Program-made: the position numbers and the translations under genes
Shown here: positions 19,342-46,847 of the stretch, in pieces
Position numbering within the stretch: the first letter of the stretch is position 1
Layout: every line of letters begins with the position of its first letter
The notes under the pieces: model-generated
Told to the model about the DNA's origin: nothing
Seen by the model: the letters and a program-made list of their open reading frames with translations, nothing else
Database searches by the model: none
DNA from: Natronorubrum halalkaliphilum
Lineage (GTDB): Archaea > Halobacteriota > Halobacteria > Halobacteriales > Natrialbaceae
Reading direction: 5' to 3'
DNA: 64,000 nucleotides
NCBI RefSeq assembly: GCF_009834785.1
Contig: NZ_WUYX01000013.1
Span: forward strand, 1-64,000

Positions 19342-19411
19342 TAGAACAGTTCGCATACCCATCTTCGACTAGCCGACGGACGGTCAGTACAGTTGTGATA
19401 CCTATCTTCAT

Positions 19412-19511
19412 ACAGCGAGAGAATCCCACCCTTCCCGTGAGGGACGAGTGTTCCGACGTCCTGTCGGAACCGAGGAGCGAGCAGGGTGGGAGTGAATCGC
19501 GTACGCTCCGG
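19412..19511 (+). ncRNA. Structured non-coding element (copy 1)
   Basis: Begins ACAGCGAGAGA and ends with GTGAATCGCGTACGCTCCGG (19492-19511), which is identical to 45234-45253. An outer stem, TCCCACCCT/AGGGTGGGA (19424-19432 with 19483-19491), encloses a perfect GTTCCGAC/GTCGGAAC hairpin (19450-19457 with 19463-19470). The copy near 45 kb keeps the two ends but has different stem sequences. Both lie on the + strand upstream of TnpB genes. It may be an RNA or a conserved IS end. Confidence 0.5.
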
Positions 19512-19694
19512 GAATATACCGCCATCGTTCCTGCTGACTGGATATTCCACGTCAAATCCTAGCCATTAAGTTATTTCATTGTCATAGGCTATGTATGGTG
19601 AGTCTGGTCACAACACGCACCATTACGGCAGCACTCACGAACGACCGTGAGGGTGTCGTACGTGACCTCGACTCATACGGTTTACTGTAGTCAA

Positions 19695-19736
19695 TTACCG
19701 CCGATCACCGATACCGTCCCTGGTGATCGACGGTAA
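19695..19736. repeat. Inverted repeat, 15-bp arms
   Basis: TTACCGCCGATCACC (19695-19709) and GGTGATCGACGGTAA (19722-19736) pair with one mismatch around a 12-base loop. It lies just before the truncated outer TnpB frame and could be a terminator or a former element end. Confidence 0.55.
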
Positions 19737-19771
19737 ATAGTTACAGCAATCCGTATCACTCGCTCGTTCCG

Positions 19772-20120
19772 GCAGTAAAATCTGGAACGTCGCTCGGTGG
19801 ACCATCAGCCGCATCTGGGACCACACCGGAGAAATCCCGGACGAGGGACCGCTCAAGTCCTACATGAAGAACCAAGCGTGCTGGAAAGATTTGAACTCGC
19901 AGTCAAGTCAGGCAATCGTCGAAGAATTGTCTGGCGCTTTCCAGTCATGGTTCCAACAGGATGACCCAGACGCTAACCCACCGGGCTACCGCAAAGACGG
20001 TGATGAACGACCACGTACAACTGTCACGTTCAAAGAAGACGGCTTCAAACTCGACACGAAACACCAGCAAGTCCGCCTCTCCAAAGGCAAAAACCTGAAA
20101 GACGGCTGGAGTGATTTTAT
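19772..20120 (+). pseudogene. tnpB: Outer TnpB gene, N-terminal-side half
   Basis: Reads SKIWNVARWTISRIWDHTGE from about 19775 through MKNQACWKDLNSQSSQAIVE to RLSKGKNLKDGWSDF. This is the pre-RuvC part of an IS1341-type TnpB. The extreme N terminus is missing. At 20120 the coding sequence is cut by insertion of another TnpB element (20121-21470) and resumes at 21471. Joining 20120 to 21471 gives GAT TTT ATC CTC TGC, that is DFILC in frame. This proves one gene split by a clean insertion. Confidence 0.88.
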
Positions 20121-20221
20121 CAGCGGACAAGGCGAATACCCCGGGGCTAGACCCCGGGGATGAAGCCGACACGTAGGAATACAAACCATTAAGTGAACAT
20201 ATCGTTAATCAAGAGACAGCG

Positions 20222-21454
20222 ATGGAACACAGTCACCGCTACCACGCCTATCCGACACAAGAGGTAGCGGAGCGACTGGAACACCATCTTGACGTTCATC
20301 GCCAACTCTACAACCACGTCCGCTGGGACTACACGAATAGCCCAGAGGACGACAAACCGAGTGAGTACGACCAGAACAACAAACTCCCCGAGTGGAAACG
20401 CAAATGGCCGGTGTTCAGCGAACTGCACTCGAAGGCCGCACAAGCCACTGTCGCTCGCTTCCACCGCAACCTCTCGAATCTTCGCAAGAAGAAAGAGAAG
20501 GGATACAACGTTGGTCGTCTCAAACGGCAAGCACCCACCGACTACCGGAGCGTGACGTACAACCAGTCTGGTTTCGACCTCGATGAAAAGAGGGGCCGCG
20601 ACAGGTTTGCTTACGTCCGCTTCAGCAAAATCGGCTGGGTGAAAATCCGATACCACCGTCCGGTCCCCGACCATACTTCAATCAAGGAGATCACGTTCAA
20701 GAAGGAGACGACTGGCGAGTGGTTCGTCTCTTTCGGATTGGAAACCAACGATGCTGACCTGACAGAGAAACCCGACGTGAACTCGCTCAACACGAGCAAC
20801 AGCGTCGGAATTGATCTCGGCATCCAGAACTACATCCACACGTCTGACGGCAAAACCGTGGACTGGCTCGACCTCGAAGACGAATACGAGGTTCTTCGCC
20901 GCGAACAACGCAAACTCTCGCGGAAACAAAAAGGGTCGAACAACTACGAAAAGCAACGCCGGGAAGTGGCGAAGGTTAAGCGGCACATCCGTCGGAAGGT
21001 GCTGGACTACCAGCACAAGATAACGACGTGGCTCGTCCGGGAGTACGACGCCGTGTTCGTCGAAGGTTTGGACGTAAAGGAGATGCTTGAACAGTCGCAC
21101 AACGCTCGCAACAAGCAGGACGCGGCGTGGCGACAGTTCATCACCCTCCTCGACTACAAAGCCGACCTGTACGGCTGTCACGTCGTGCAGGTCGAAGCCT
21201 CTGGAACGACGAAAGAGTGCGCGTCGTGTGGTGTGGAGACGGCGAAGCCAATTTGGGTGCGTGAACACTCCTGCCCGTCATGTGGGTTCGAGTGCGACCG
21301 TGACGCGAACGCGGCGATGAACGTTCTACAACGCGGCTTTTCTGAGTTAGGGCTGGGATGGCCCGAACCCACGCCTGTGGAGACTGCGCTCCCTACGGAC
21401 ACCTATTCGGTGTCTGCAAAGCGCGTCGTAGAAACAGGAAGCCTCGGGGCTTGA
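20222..21454 (+). CDS. tnpB: TnpB RNA-guided nuclease, intact, inner element
   Basis: 410-residue TnpB, full length. The RuvC-like catalytic triad is visible: Asp198 (VGIDLGIQNY), Glu281 (VFVEGLDVKE) and Asp361 (CDRDANAAMN). A zinc finger, Cys333/336/351/354 (CASCG...CPSCG), sits between the last two. The N-terminal domain (YPTQEVAERLEHHLDVHRQL) matches the nucleic-acid-binding part. TnpB proteins use an RNA from the element's right end to cut DNA next to a short motif and so keep the element in the genome. The stop codon lies in the loop of the right-end hairpin, as is common for overlapping guide RNAs. Confidence 0.92.
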   Translation: MEHSHRYHAYPTQEVAERLEHHLDVHRQLYNHVRWDYTNSPEDDKPSEYDQNNKLPEWKRKWPVFSELHSKAAQATVARFHRNLSNLRKKKEKGYNVGRLKRQAPTDYRSVTYNQSGFDLDEKRGRDRFAYVRFSKIGWVKIRYHRPVPDHTSIKEITFKKETTGEWFVSFGLETNDADLTEKPDVNSLNTSNSVGIDLGIQNYIHTSDGKTVDWLDLEDEYEVLRREQRKLSRKQKGSNNYEKQRREVAKVKRHIRRKVLDYQHKITTWLVREYDAVFVEGLDVKEMLEQSHNARNKQDAAWRQFITLLDYKADLYGCHVVQVEASGTTKECASCGVETAKPIWVREHSCPSCGFECDRDANAAMNVLQRGFSELGLGWPEPTPVETALPTDTYSVSAKRVVETGSLGA

Positions 21455-21470
21455 CCCCGAGGCGATTCAC
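21425..21470 (+). ncRNA. Putative omega-RNA 3' scaffold of inner element
   Basis: GGAAGCC followed by the 9-bp stem at 21441-21463 and a GATTCAC end. The same GGAARCC-hairpin-end layout occurs after the other two TnpB genes. The 5' boundary within tnpB is not determinable. Guide sequence would begin at 21471, which is the interrupted host tnpB itself. Confidence 0.5.
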
Positions 21471-22278
21471 CCTCTGCGAATACGACACCGGTCCAGACGC
21501 AGACTTGACCGACGTAGAAGACGTACAACAGGTCCGCATCATCTGGAACGGTGACCACTGGGAACTCCATTTCGTCTGTAAAGTCGCCATCGACGCCGCT
21601 GACTCGTCAGGTGAGACAACCGCAGGTGTTGACCTCGGAATCTGCAACACTGCCGCCATCTCTGTCGGTGACGAAACCGTATTGTATCCAGGCAACGCCT
21701 TGAAAGAAGACGCTCACTACTTCCGGCAGGAAGAATACGATACGGAAGGCGAGAACGGCCCCAGCACCCATGCTGAGTGGGCACGACAGAAGAAATCCCG
21801 ACGACAAACACATTTCCTGCACGCTCTCTCGAAAGACATTGTTGAGCAGTGTGTAGACCGTGATGTTGGGAAGATAGCGGTCGGCCACCCGAAGAACATC
21901 CGCGAGGATGAAGACTGGGGTAGGCACGGGAACAAACGCCTGCACGACTGGGCGTTTGAAACCATCCTGAGTCACATCGAGTATAAGGCCGAAGAGCGTG
22001 GGATCGAGGTTGAGCGGATTGACGAGTACGAGTTAGCCACGTCGATAACGTGCTGTGAGTGTGGTATGAAAGCTGACTCGAACCGTGTTGAGCGTGGGTT
22101 GTACGTCTGTGAAGAGTGTGAATTGGTTGCGAATAGCGACTGTAATGCGGCTGAAAACATGCGAAAGACGGTAACTCCGAGTCCGTCACAGGATAGGAGT
22201 AACGGCTGTCTGGCCCAGCCATCGGTGCGCCTGTTCGACAAATCGACGGGGAGAGTAGCCCCACAAGAACAGGTGTGA
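21471..22278 (+). pseudogene. tnpB: Outer TnpB gene, C-terminal half
   Basis: Continues the frame interrupted at 20120. LCEYDTGPDADLTDVEDVQQ, then the RuvC-I motif AGVDLGICNTAA, a HFLHALSKDIVEQCVDRDVG helix, the RuvC-II region KIAVGHPKNIREDEDWG, a zinc finger (CCECG...CEECE) and the RuvC-III Asp in NSDCNAAENM. At the usual RuvC-II Glu position this subfamily has Gly-His, and Glu residues lie a few positions later, as in other haloarchaeal TnpBs with a VGDL-type motif. It is inactive as it stands because of the insertion, but would be restored by precise excision except for the missing N terminus. Confidence 0.88.
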
Positions 22279-22309: not shown

Positions 22310-22352
22310 TGCGGTTCGGGAAGCCGCGTCCTTCAGGACTCGGAGGAGGTCA
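22310..22352 (+). ncRNA. Putative omega-RNA 3' end of outer TnpB element
   Basis: GGGAAGCC followed by a short TCCTTCAGGA hairpin and CGGAGGAGGTCA (ends 22352). The pattern GGAAnCC...TTCA...CGGnGAGGAnGTCA is shared with 46811-46847 after the third TnpB, marking the right end and guide-RNA scaffold of this group. Confidence 0.55.
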
Positions 22353-22379
22353 CTACTCGGATCAATCGGTGAGACCGGT

Positions 22380-44394: not shown

Positions 44395-45144
44395 GTTACC
44401 ACCCACCACATCCATCCCCTTATGGCTAACACGGACGTGCCGACCTTGGGAGCCAAAAATGGGTATTGGAAGCGGCCCACGACCATCGGCGCCTGAATCC
44501 CCCGGTGTGAGCGACGACGGACCTGCCTCAGGTGGAAAACCGCACACCGGTCACTGAAGGCAGGCCAGTCGAATGTGTGTCACTCTCACGCAAAGGAGTT
44601 GCCCAGTCGTATGCATGGTGACTGTACGGAACTCGTGAACCTGATCGAACAGAAAACCCGACAGTTCAGTCCAACAATCTTTGGCCGCAGCCTCTTTTAC
44701 GATGCCGTGTGAGCTACTACCACGCTCGCGGGAACGTTGTCTGGTGTGCGGCGACCCCGCGGGCGCATCCTCACCCCCACGTTTTCGGAACCGCTCCGGC
44801 CTCGAGCGATAGCCGAACCGATCACGGGCGGATACGCGGTTCGCGGACCGAACCCTGTTTCGGGGCCGACGCACGGTATCCGAAGACCGGCACCGAACCG
44901 GCGACGGTCCAACGGCCAATACGCTTAATCGACTGGAATGTAATGGTGGAGTCGCGGAAACACCAGTGAAACCAATGGTGATATCCGCCAGCCAGAGACG
45001 TTCGAAACTGCTCCGTCACTGACCGCGGTCGTTCCAACGTCGACCGAGTAGGCGCGCAGTCTCCGATCGCTCTTCCACTGACACACCACCGGAAGGGGGT
45101 TCGACGTCGGCTGTCGGCCGGCGTTTTTTGAGTACTACCTTTCA
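44395..45144. other. Large intergenic region, no gene supported
   Basis: 750 bases of GC-rich sequence with overlapping open frames on both strands of poor, Arg/Ser/Pro-rich composition, none with family features. It probably contains decayed IS material. Confidence 0.4.
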
Positions 45145-45253
45145 ACAGCGAGAGAGTGCCGCCGTTCACGGCGTTGACGAGACGCTTCGCGGCTCGTTCG
45201 CACACCAGAACGCGCCGCGTTCTGGGGACGGGCGTGAATCGCGTACGCTCCGG
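45145..45253 (+). ncRNA. Structured non-coding element (copy 2)
   Basis: Starts ACAGCGAGAGA, contains GCCG-ttca-CGGC (45161-45172) and the perfect stem CCAGAACGCG/CGCGTTCTGG (45205-45214 with 45216-45225), and ends with the same 20 bases as copy 1 (45234-45253). Stem sequences differ from copy 1 while pairing is kept, which suggests structure matters. It lies 200 bases before the TnpB gene. Confidence 0.5.
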
Positions 45254-45268
45254 TGGGAACCCGTCGTG

Positions 45269-45412
45269 TTACTGCTGGTCCTGAGTCTCCAACGCTTCCA
45301 GGCCTGCTTCTAATACCTCTGTATAGGCTTCTGAAAGCCCCAAGTCGTTCGCTTCTGCATAGTCTTTGACTCGGCCACCGAGCGTGTGTGAAATATCGAT
45401 GTTGGGTCGCAT
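45269..45412 (-). CDS. 47-residue ribbon-helix-helix-like protein, divergent from TnpB
   Basis: MRPNIDISHTLGGRVKDYAE, then ANDLGLSEAYTEVLEAGLEA and LETQDQQ. The strand NIDIS plus two helices follows the CopG-type ribbon-helix-helix pattern. Only 42 bases separate its ATG (45412) from the GTG of the TnpB gene (45455) on the other strand, so the two share a promoter region. It may repress tnpB; alternatively it is an orphan antitoxin. Confidence 0.65.
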   Translation of the reverse strand: MRPNIDISHTLGGRVKDYAEANDLGLSEAYTEVLEAGLEALETQDQQ

Positions 45413-46810: not shown

Positions 46811-46847
46811 GGAGGAAACCTCGGCGTTCACGTCGGGGAGGATGTCA
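46811..46847 (+). ncRNA. Putative omega-RNA 3' end of the 45 kb TnpB element
   Basis: GGAGGAAACC, a small hairpin around GTTCAC, then CGGGGAGGATGTCA ending at 46847. It matches the pattern after the outer TnpB at 22310-22352. The candidate guide would start at 46848. The 5' extent into tnpB is unknown. Confidence 0.55.

Follow-up and report, generated by a model that had tools for sequence, protein, structure and literature searches.

Two structured stretches upstream of tnpB in a haloarchaeal genome are very probably transposon left ends with enlarged hairpins

Here we describe two structured stretches of DNA in a 64,000-nucleotide segment of the Natronorubrum halalkaliphilum genome (contig NZ_WUYX01000013.1; the whole segment is referred to here as the window), which are very probably the left ends (LEs), each with its left imperfect palindrome (IP_L), of tnpB-carrying elements of the IS200/IS605 type and the IS1341 group. 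A sequence-only reading of the same DNA had wavered between an undescribed RNA and a conserved transposon end. The transposon end is borne out by the data presented below, while the RNA found no positive support.

Results

The two stretches lie on the + strand at 19412-19511 (copy 1) and 45145-45253 (copy 2), as first described, and they do share an identical head, ACAGCGAGAGA, and an identical 20-base tail, GTGAATCGCGTACGCTCCGG. When up to 3 mismatches are allowed, the tail matches the window twice, well beyond the 0.07 matches expected by chance, and none of 100 shuffled sequences reached two matches; the 11-base head alone, with up to 1 mismatch, gives four matches against 2.19 expected, which is not beyond chance. 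The inner stems of both copies pair, and the single-sequence folding energies are only mildly better than those of shuffled sequences, with z values of -2.2 for copy 1 and -1.2 for copy 2. These stems had been read as compensating each other and hence as a sign of structural selection. However, they come from different architectures (type III in copy 1 and type IIa in copy 2, as defined below), and their positions are not homologous. Since GTTCCGAC/GTCGGAAC and CCAGAACGCG/CGCGTTCTGG are thus non-homologous optional inserts, the two copies alone give no evidence of covariation. Compensatory change is nevertheless found in the single-hairpin core of the family, and it is this core, not the two window copies, that shows structural selection.

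Among the 125 genomes of the host family, 89 match the tail pattern when as many as 3 mismatches are allowed, although many of these matches are due to chance, true copies being those that carry the conserved head upstream. A pattern joining both ends, AGCGAGAGA-N16..46-GTGAATCGCG, was found in 111 of the 392 genomes of the order, with a single match for the reversed-pattern control, and its N47..77 form was found in 63 of the 392, with no match for the control. The commonest form of the LE is a single hairpin, AGCGAGAGAATCCCGCCGTTCACGGCGGGCGTGAATCGCG. In types IIa to IIc, two hairpins are added on the 3' side of the loop (copy 2 is of type IIa), in type IId two hairpins are added on its 5' side, and in type III, the type of copy 1, a single long arm carries tandem G-A motifs. 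The hairpin is therefore enlarged in both window copies, by a GA-bulged long arm in copy 1 and by two extra hairpins in copy 2. The host genome (G000) holds several tnpB elements, with near-identical left ends (95-98%).

Pairing in the single-hairpin core was evaluated on 43 distinct sequences. In this set, 96.0% of the cells were paired, versus 86.9% after shuffling, and changes on both sides of a pair were seen in 36 cells, versus 11.8. The covariation score was 0.270, compared with 0.110 for shuffled sequences (0/500) and with at most 0.056 when the partners were slid. The outer GCGA/TCGC pairs are invariant and so fall outside this test, most of their bases having been fixed by the search pattern itself. 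For the type III form, RNAalifold reported that columns 26-72, 29-69, and 30-68 change in a compensating manner. Because these linker columns covary, the type III insert is described here as one long bulged arm, and a three-way junction, which had been considered for it, was dropped. A kink-turn in the GAGAG/GUGAA internal loop was also dropped, as the consensus G-A pairs, inspected by hand, do not lie beside the C-stem.

Comparison of 59 loci placed an abrupt left edge of conservation at the target CTAYC, 12 bases ahead of AGCGAG. Over CTAYC/TT, conservation amounts to 0.8-1.9 bits per column, and AGCGAGAGA is fully conserved, as fixed by the search pattern; outward from position -13, only 0.02-0.15 bits per column are left. 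This drop to the left of CTAYC indicates that the left flank is unique DNA, and the edge at CTAYC in the 59 loci is that of an insertion beside a short fixed sequence, without terminal inverted repeats. The exact cut falls on one side or the other of the final C in CTAYC and is thus placed within about one base.

Position 10 of the LE covaries with base -2 of the flanking target. A10 is accompanied by T(-2) in 73 cases and by C(-2) in 1, G10 by C(-2) in 27 and by T(-2) in 0, and three cases show other combinations (Fisher P = 1e-23). The mutual information of this pair of positions is 0.78 bit, with 0.21 for the next best pair, and the phase of the LE (spacers of 6 or 7 nt) was set by a rule blind to the tested base. 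The rule, A10 with CTATC and G10 with CTACC, holds separately in single-hairpin, type II, and type III elements and is obeyed by both window copies (A10/CTATC in copy 1 and G10/CTACC in copy 2). In the tnpB tree, a G10/CTACC grade encloses a single supported clade of A10/CTATC, a separate A10/CAATC case is represented by locus L153, and other tnpB families have A10/T. The guide and target states thus follow the tnpB tree in part, meaning that many insertions stand against few evolutionary switches, and pairing of the guide with the target/cleavage site is seen here as natural covariation with few independent switches. Such covariation is expected if TnpA acts by guide:target pairing, and the specificity of TnpB or TnpA could have switched together with the guide.

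A tnpB or Y1 tnpA gene lies downstream of the LE on the same strand in 46 of the 59 loci, on the opposite strand in none, and upstream in one; at locus L181, a Y1_Tnp match (E = 2.4e-39) comes directly after a type III LE. In seven of the other 13 loci, the LE leads to a hairpin and GGAGGATGTCA right end (RE) within 200-480 bp. One of the remaining six ends at the end of its contig, and five have neither gene nor RE. The expectation, raised with the initial proposal, that every match would be near tnpB is thus not upheld, most of the matches that lack a downstream tnpB or tnpA being short LE-plus-RE derivatives, and such derivatives among the matches without tnpB are what a transposon end predicts. 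In an intact relative of the copy 1 element (L099), hairpins with a CGTTCACG core are common to the LE and the RE. Subterminal hairpins that are similar at both ends were found in this relative, in the RE of copy 2, and in the REs of tnpB-less derivatives, seven of which have the RE motif of copy 2. At four loci (L045, L143, L179, and L180), the LE is partially duplicated in tandem, and each duplication begins anew at the LE base TT, the restarts reading TTGATTC, TTTAAAC, and TTAATAC and being fused to ...ATC or ...AGC. Cutting of a single strand at the LE end would give duplications of this kind, with a fixed LE base as their start. In two of these four loci, the joint lies inside the conserved tail, at GTGAATC.

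A search of 40 relatives for empty sites yielded no uninterrupted site for either window copy but, in the case of copy 1, brought to light the nested insertion described below, and at the glmS and HIT-gene sites of other genera, the flanks are too diverged to place the cut to the base. At two loci from two species (L200 and L201), GGAGGATGTCA abuts the 3' end of a glmS-like gene and supplies its stop codon, which is possibly a case of recurrent insertion. A search of the host genome for a Y1 TnpA gene (PF01797) found none.

The features of the two loci are listed in Table 1. The LE of copy 1 is made up of the spacer TTCATAC, the conserved AGCGAGAGA, the long bulged arm, and the conserved tail, and it belongs to an outer element whose tnpB gene starts 87 bp after the copy and is interrupted twice, first by a MITE (about 19669-19763) and next by a complete nested TnpB element. 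Although both copies had been placed 200-350 bases before a TnpB frame, this distance fits only copy 2 (201 bp). The next intact tnpB open reading frame (ORF) after copy 1 lies 711 bp downstream and is part of the nested element, and since the tnpB gene proper to copy 1 is the split gene that starts at 19598, copy 1 had been paired with the wrong tnpB, that at 20222. The Pfam OrfB_IS605 domain is matched by the intact homologue of the outer tnpB in L099, and the 3' part of the split gene shares 85-88% identity with the intact tnpB of L099, L100, and L102 and 80% with that of L101. The MITE-like palindromic repeat, about 90 bp long, has at least 5 further copies in the host genome, with 92-97% identity.

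The nested element has an LE hairpin at 20139-20159, CCCCGGGG CTAGA CCCCGGGG, and an RE hairpin that ends with GATTCAC, and its insertion point follows TTATC. Homologues in G133 and G134 contain neither the MITE nor the nested element and thereby provide the empty site of the nested element, which is precise and without target duplication. Nested TnpB elements also record, in nature, how targets are chosen.

The element of copy 2 is complete: CTACC, at 45135-45139, is followed by the LE, the antisense ORF, tnpB, and the RE, which ends at 46847. Its LE consists of a core hairpin, CCGTTCACGG, with the two extra hairpins. The 47-amino-acid antisense ORF that follows is conserved in copy-2-type elements from several genera, and a Pfam search with it returned no match. 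TnpB of copy 2, like that of the L099 and L185 families, lacks the canonical RuvC-II glutamate; the active site may be rearranged or the protein may be nuclease-dead.

Table 1. Features of the two elements in the window
Feature	Position	Strand	Support or remark
CTATC, target/cleavage site C_L, flanking DNA left of copy 1	19402..19406	+	conservation edge in 59 loci, covariation of base -2; boundary certain to about 1 nt
Outer IS left end, copy 1, type III expanded IP_L	19407..19511	+	
Copy 1, guide base A at position 10 (matches T at -2 of CTATC)	19423..19423	+	
Outer tnpB, 5' part	19598..20121	+	intact homologues L099-L102 with neither insert
Nested second IS605-type element, tnpB at 20222-21454	20122..21470	+	empty site in G133 and G134
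Outer tnpB, 3' part	21471..22278	+	Pfam OrfB_IS605 and TNB
Outer IS right end: hairpin CCGCGTCCTTCAGGACTCGG, then GAGGAGGTCAC	22325..22353	+	similarity to L099-L102 stops at 22353
CTACC, target/cleavage site C_L left of copy 2	45135..45139	+	
Copy 2 left end, type IIa expanded IP_L	45140..45253	+	
Copy 2, guide base G at position 10 (matches C at -2 of CTACC)	45156..45156	+	
Antisense ORF, 47 aa, MRPNIDISHTLGGRV...	45269..45412	-	kept between LE and tnpB in copy-2-type elements
tnpB, 445 aa	45455..46792	+	Pfam OrfB_IS605 5.7e-30, Cas12f1-like_TNB 1.3e-13
Copy 2 right end: hairpin CCTCGGCGTTCACGTCGGGG, then AGGATGTCA	46819..46847	+	CGTTCACG core as in LE

Discussion

The guide and cleavage logic is the same in IS608, whose guide sits 5' to the foot of the hairpin and base-pairs with the target (PMC5934647). 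A similar sequence of events can be proposed for the elements described here. On a single strand, be it the lagging-strand template or another, AGCGAGAG...GTGAATCGCG would fold into IP_L, and a Y1 transposase, TnpA, supplied in trans, would bind this LE hairpin. The guide bases that immediately precede the hairpin on its 5' side, namely, position 10 and, by its location, probably also position 11, would then pair with CTAYC, and this pairing would lead to a cut of the strand beside the target, presumably by TnpA. As the host has no Y1 tnpA gene, movement would need TnpA from elsewhere.

The enlarged arms deserve separate consideration. Loci L123 and L177 come from different genera, and their aligned region is identical save for a clean 47-nt insert of two hairpins in the LE loop; expanded and single-hairpin LEs are, furthermore, intermixed on the tnpB tree. 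Taken together, this identifies the arms as optional modules. It is conceivable, although we lean against it, that the enlarged arms are parasitic inserts, that is, small mobile repeats that settled in the TnpA hairpin and bring the element no advantage. The clean insert that separates the otherwise identical L123 and L177, as well as the intermixing of simple and expanded forms, would fit such an origin, and small repeats of Haloquadratum are described in the main text of PMC3119063 as inserting into near-terminal palindromes. However, pairing is kept in the arms, with those of type III covarying across linker positions, recurrence is seen for few insertion points, and no similar cassette was detected outside LEs in the host genome at the threshold used. 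We raise only speculatively, and consider unlikely, the idea that the two-arm cassettes form a separate class of tiny modules, hitch-hiking or regulatory, which would enter and leave the TnpA-recognized hairpin cleanly, with the fold kept, and would tune or parasitize single-strand transposition.

The LE could also have a second role next to its service in DNA transposition, with its hairpins terminating or insulating against transcription from outside, or ending the antisense gene, and with the arms strengthening this effect. The stop codon of the antisense ORF is located 15 bp from the tail, and such a role of IS200/IS605 end hairpins has been speculated upon earlier (PMC7290912). We regard this additional function as rather improbable, since elements that lack the antisense ORF conserve the LE just as well, the hairpin has no U-run after it, and a scan for terminators, of the bacterial type, calls none inside the LE.

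Far less plausible still is a structured noncoding RNA upstream of tnpB with a function of its own, either a riboswitch-like leader or a trans-acting RNA, even though the stable folds, the conserved core with its covariation, and the steady position upstream on the tnpB strand might suggest one. Rfam covariance models gave 0 matches in the window at the gathering threshold, and no conserved promoter was found upstream of the LE in the 59 loci, there being no conservation left of -13. A conserved promoter is indeed excluded by the low information content immediately left of the target, and a stand-alone RNA was rejected on the basis of the empty Rfam search and this lack of upstream conservation. 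In addition, the LE form is retained in tnpB-less derivatives that end in an RE, and both the covariation with flanking target DNA and the duplications that restart at the LE terminus are signatures at the level of DNA. TATA-like sequences are present between the LE and tnpB, and hence the LE is probably located outside the tnpB mRNA. That the LE, structured and linked to TnpB as it is, might be a TnpB omegaRNA scaffold that has moved to the left side is hardly credible, as archaeal omegaRNAs contain the RE hairpin (PMC12558985), their source in this TnpB family is the 3' end of tnpB plus the RE, RE hairpins are separately present in both window elements, and the LE is on the 5' side, preceding tnpB in all but one locus with a tnpB or tnpA match.

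With the LE very probably a transposon end, what appeared to be an orphan RNA becomes a clear DNA element, and the consensus CTAYC/TTnnnnCAGCGAGAG-hairpin-GTGAATCGCG provides a usable left boundary for many haloarchaeal tnpB elements. According to the main text of PMC3119063, annotation had covered only the coding region in most haloarchaeal IS605-type elements. The LE boundary also predicts the transposon-adjacent motif of the cognate TnpB nucleases, which would be CTATC or CTACC. The A10/T and G10/C covariation lends natural, genome-scale support to target choice by guide:target pairing, for which support has hitherto come mainly from IS608 and ISDra2, and the enlarged hairpins pose the question of the maximum size of a TnpA hairpin.

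Similar to IS608 and ISDra2, the elements have a subterminal imperfect palindrome at both ends, with guide bases just 5' of the hairpin, insert 3' of a short fixed sequence, and carry tnpB and sometimes Y1 tnpA. Guide:target pairing is as in IS608 (PMC5934647), seen here from natural covariation. In contrast to those systems, the target is CTAYC instead of TTAC or TTGAT, an extra outer stem is formed by the head and tail, AGCGAGAG / GTGAATCGCG, which are long and fully conserved, IP_L is often enlarged by extra arms, and most elements are without tnpA. The haloarchaeal TnpB omegaRNA and sotRNA (PMC12558985) are likewise structured and linked to tnpB; however, they are located at the 3' end of tnpB and the RE, whereas the element described here is at the left end. 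A closer likeness is to the haloarchaeal IS605-type transposons and PATEs (ISNph and ISHwa), for which the main text of PMC3119063 describes near-terminal palindromes and a targeting oligonucleotide of 4-6 bp, many orphan tnpB genes, short tnpB-less derivatives, and small repeats within the palindromes. That main text gives no LE consensus with the present head and tail and does not describe type II or III arms or guide:target covariation. The head and tail consensus may already be on record in ISfinder or in the supplements to PMC3119063, while the expanded multi-arm LEs and the natural covariation of guide and target may be new.
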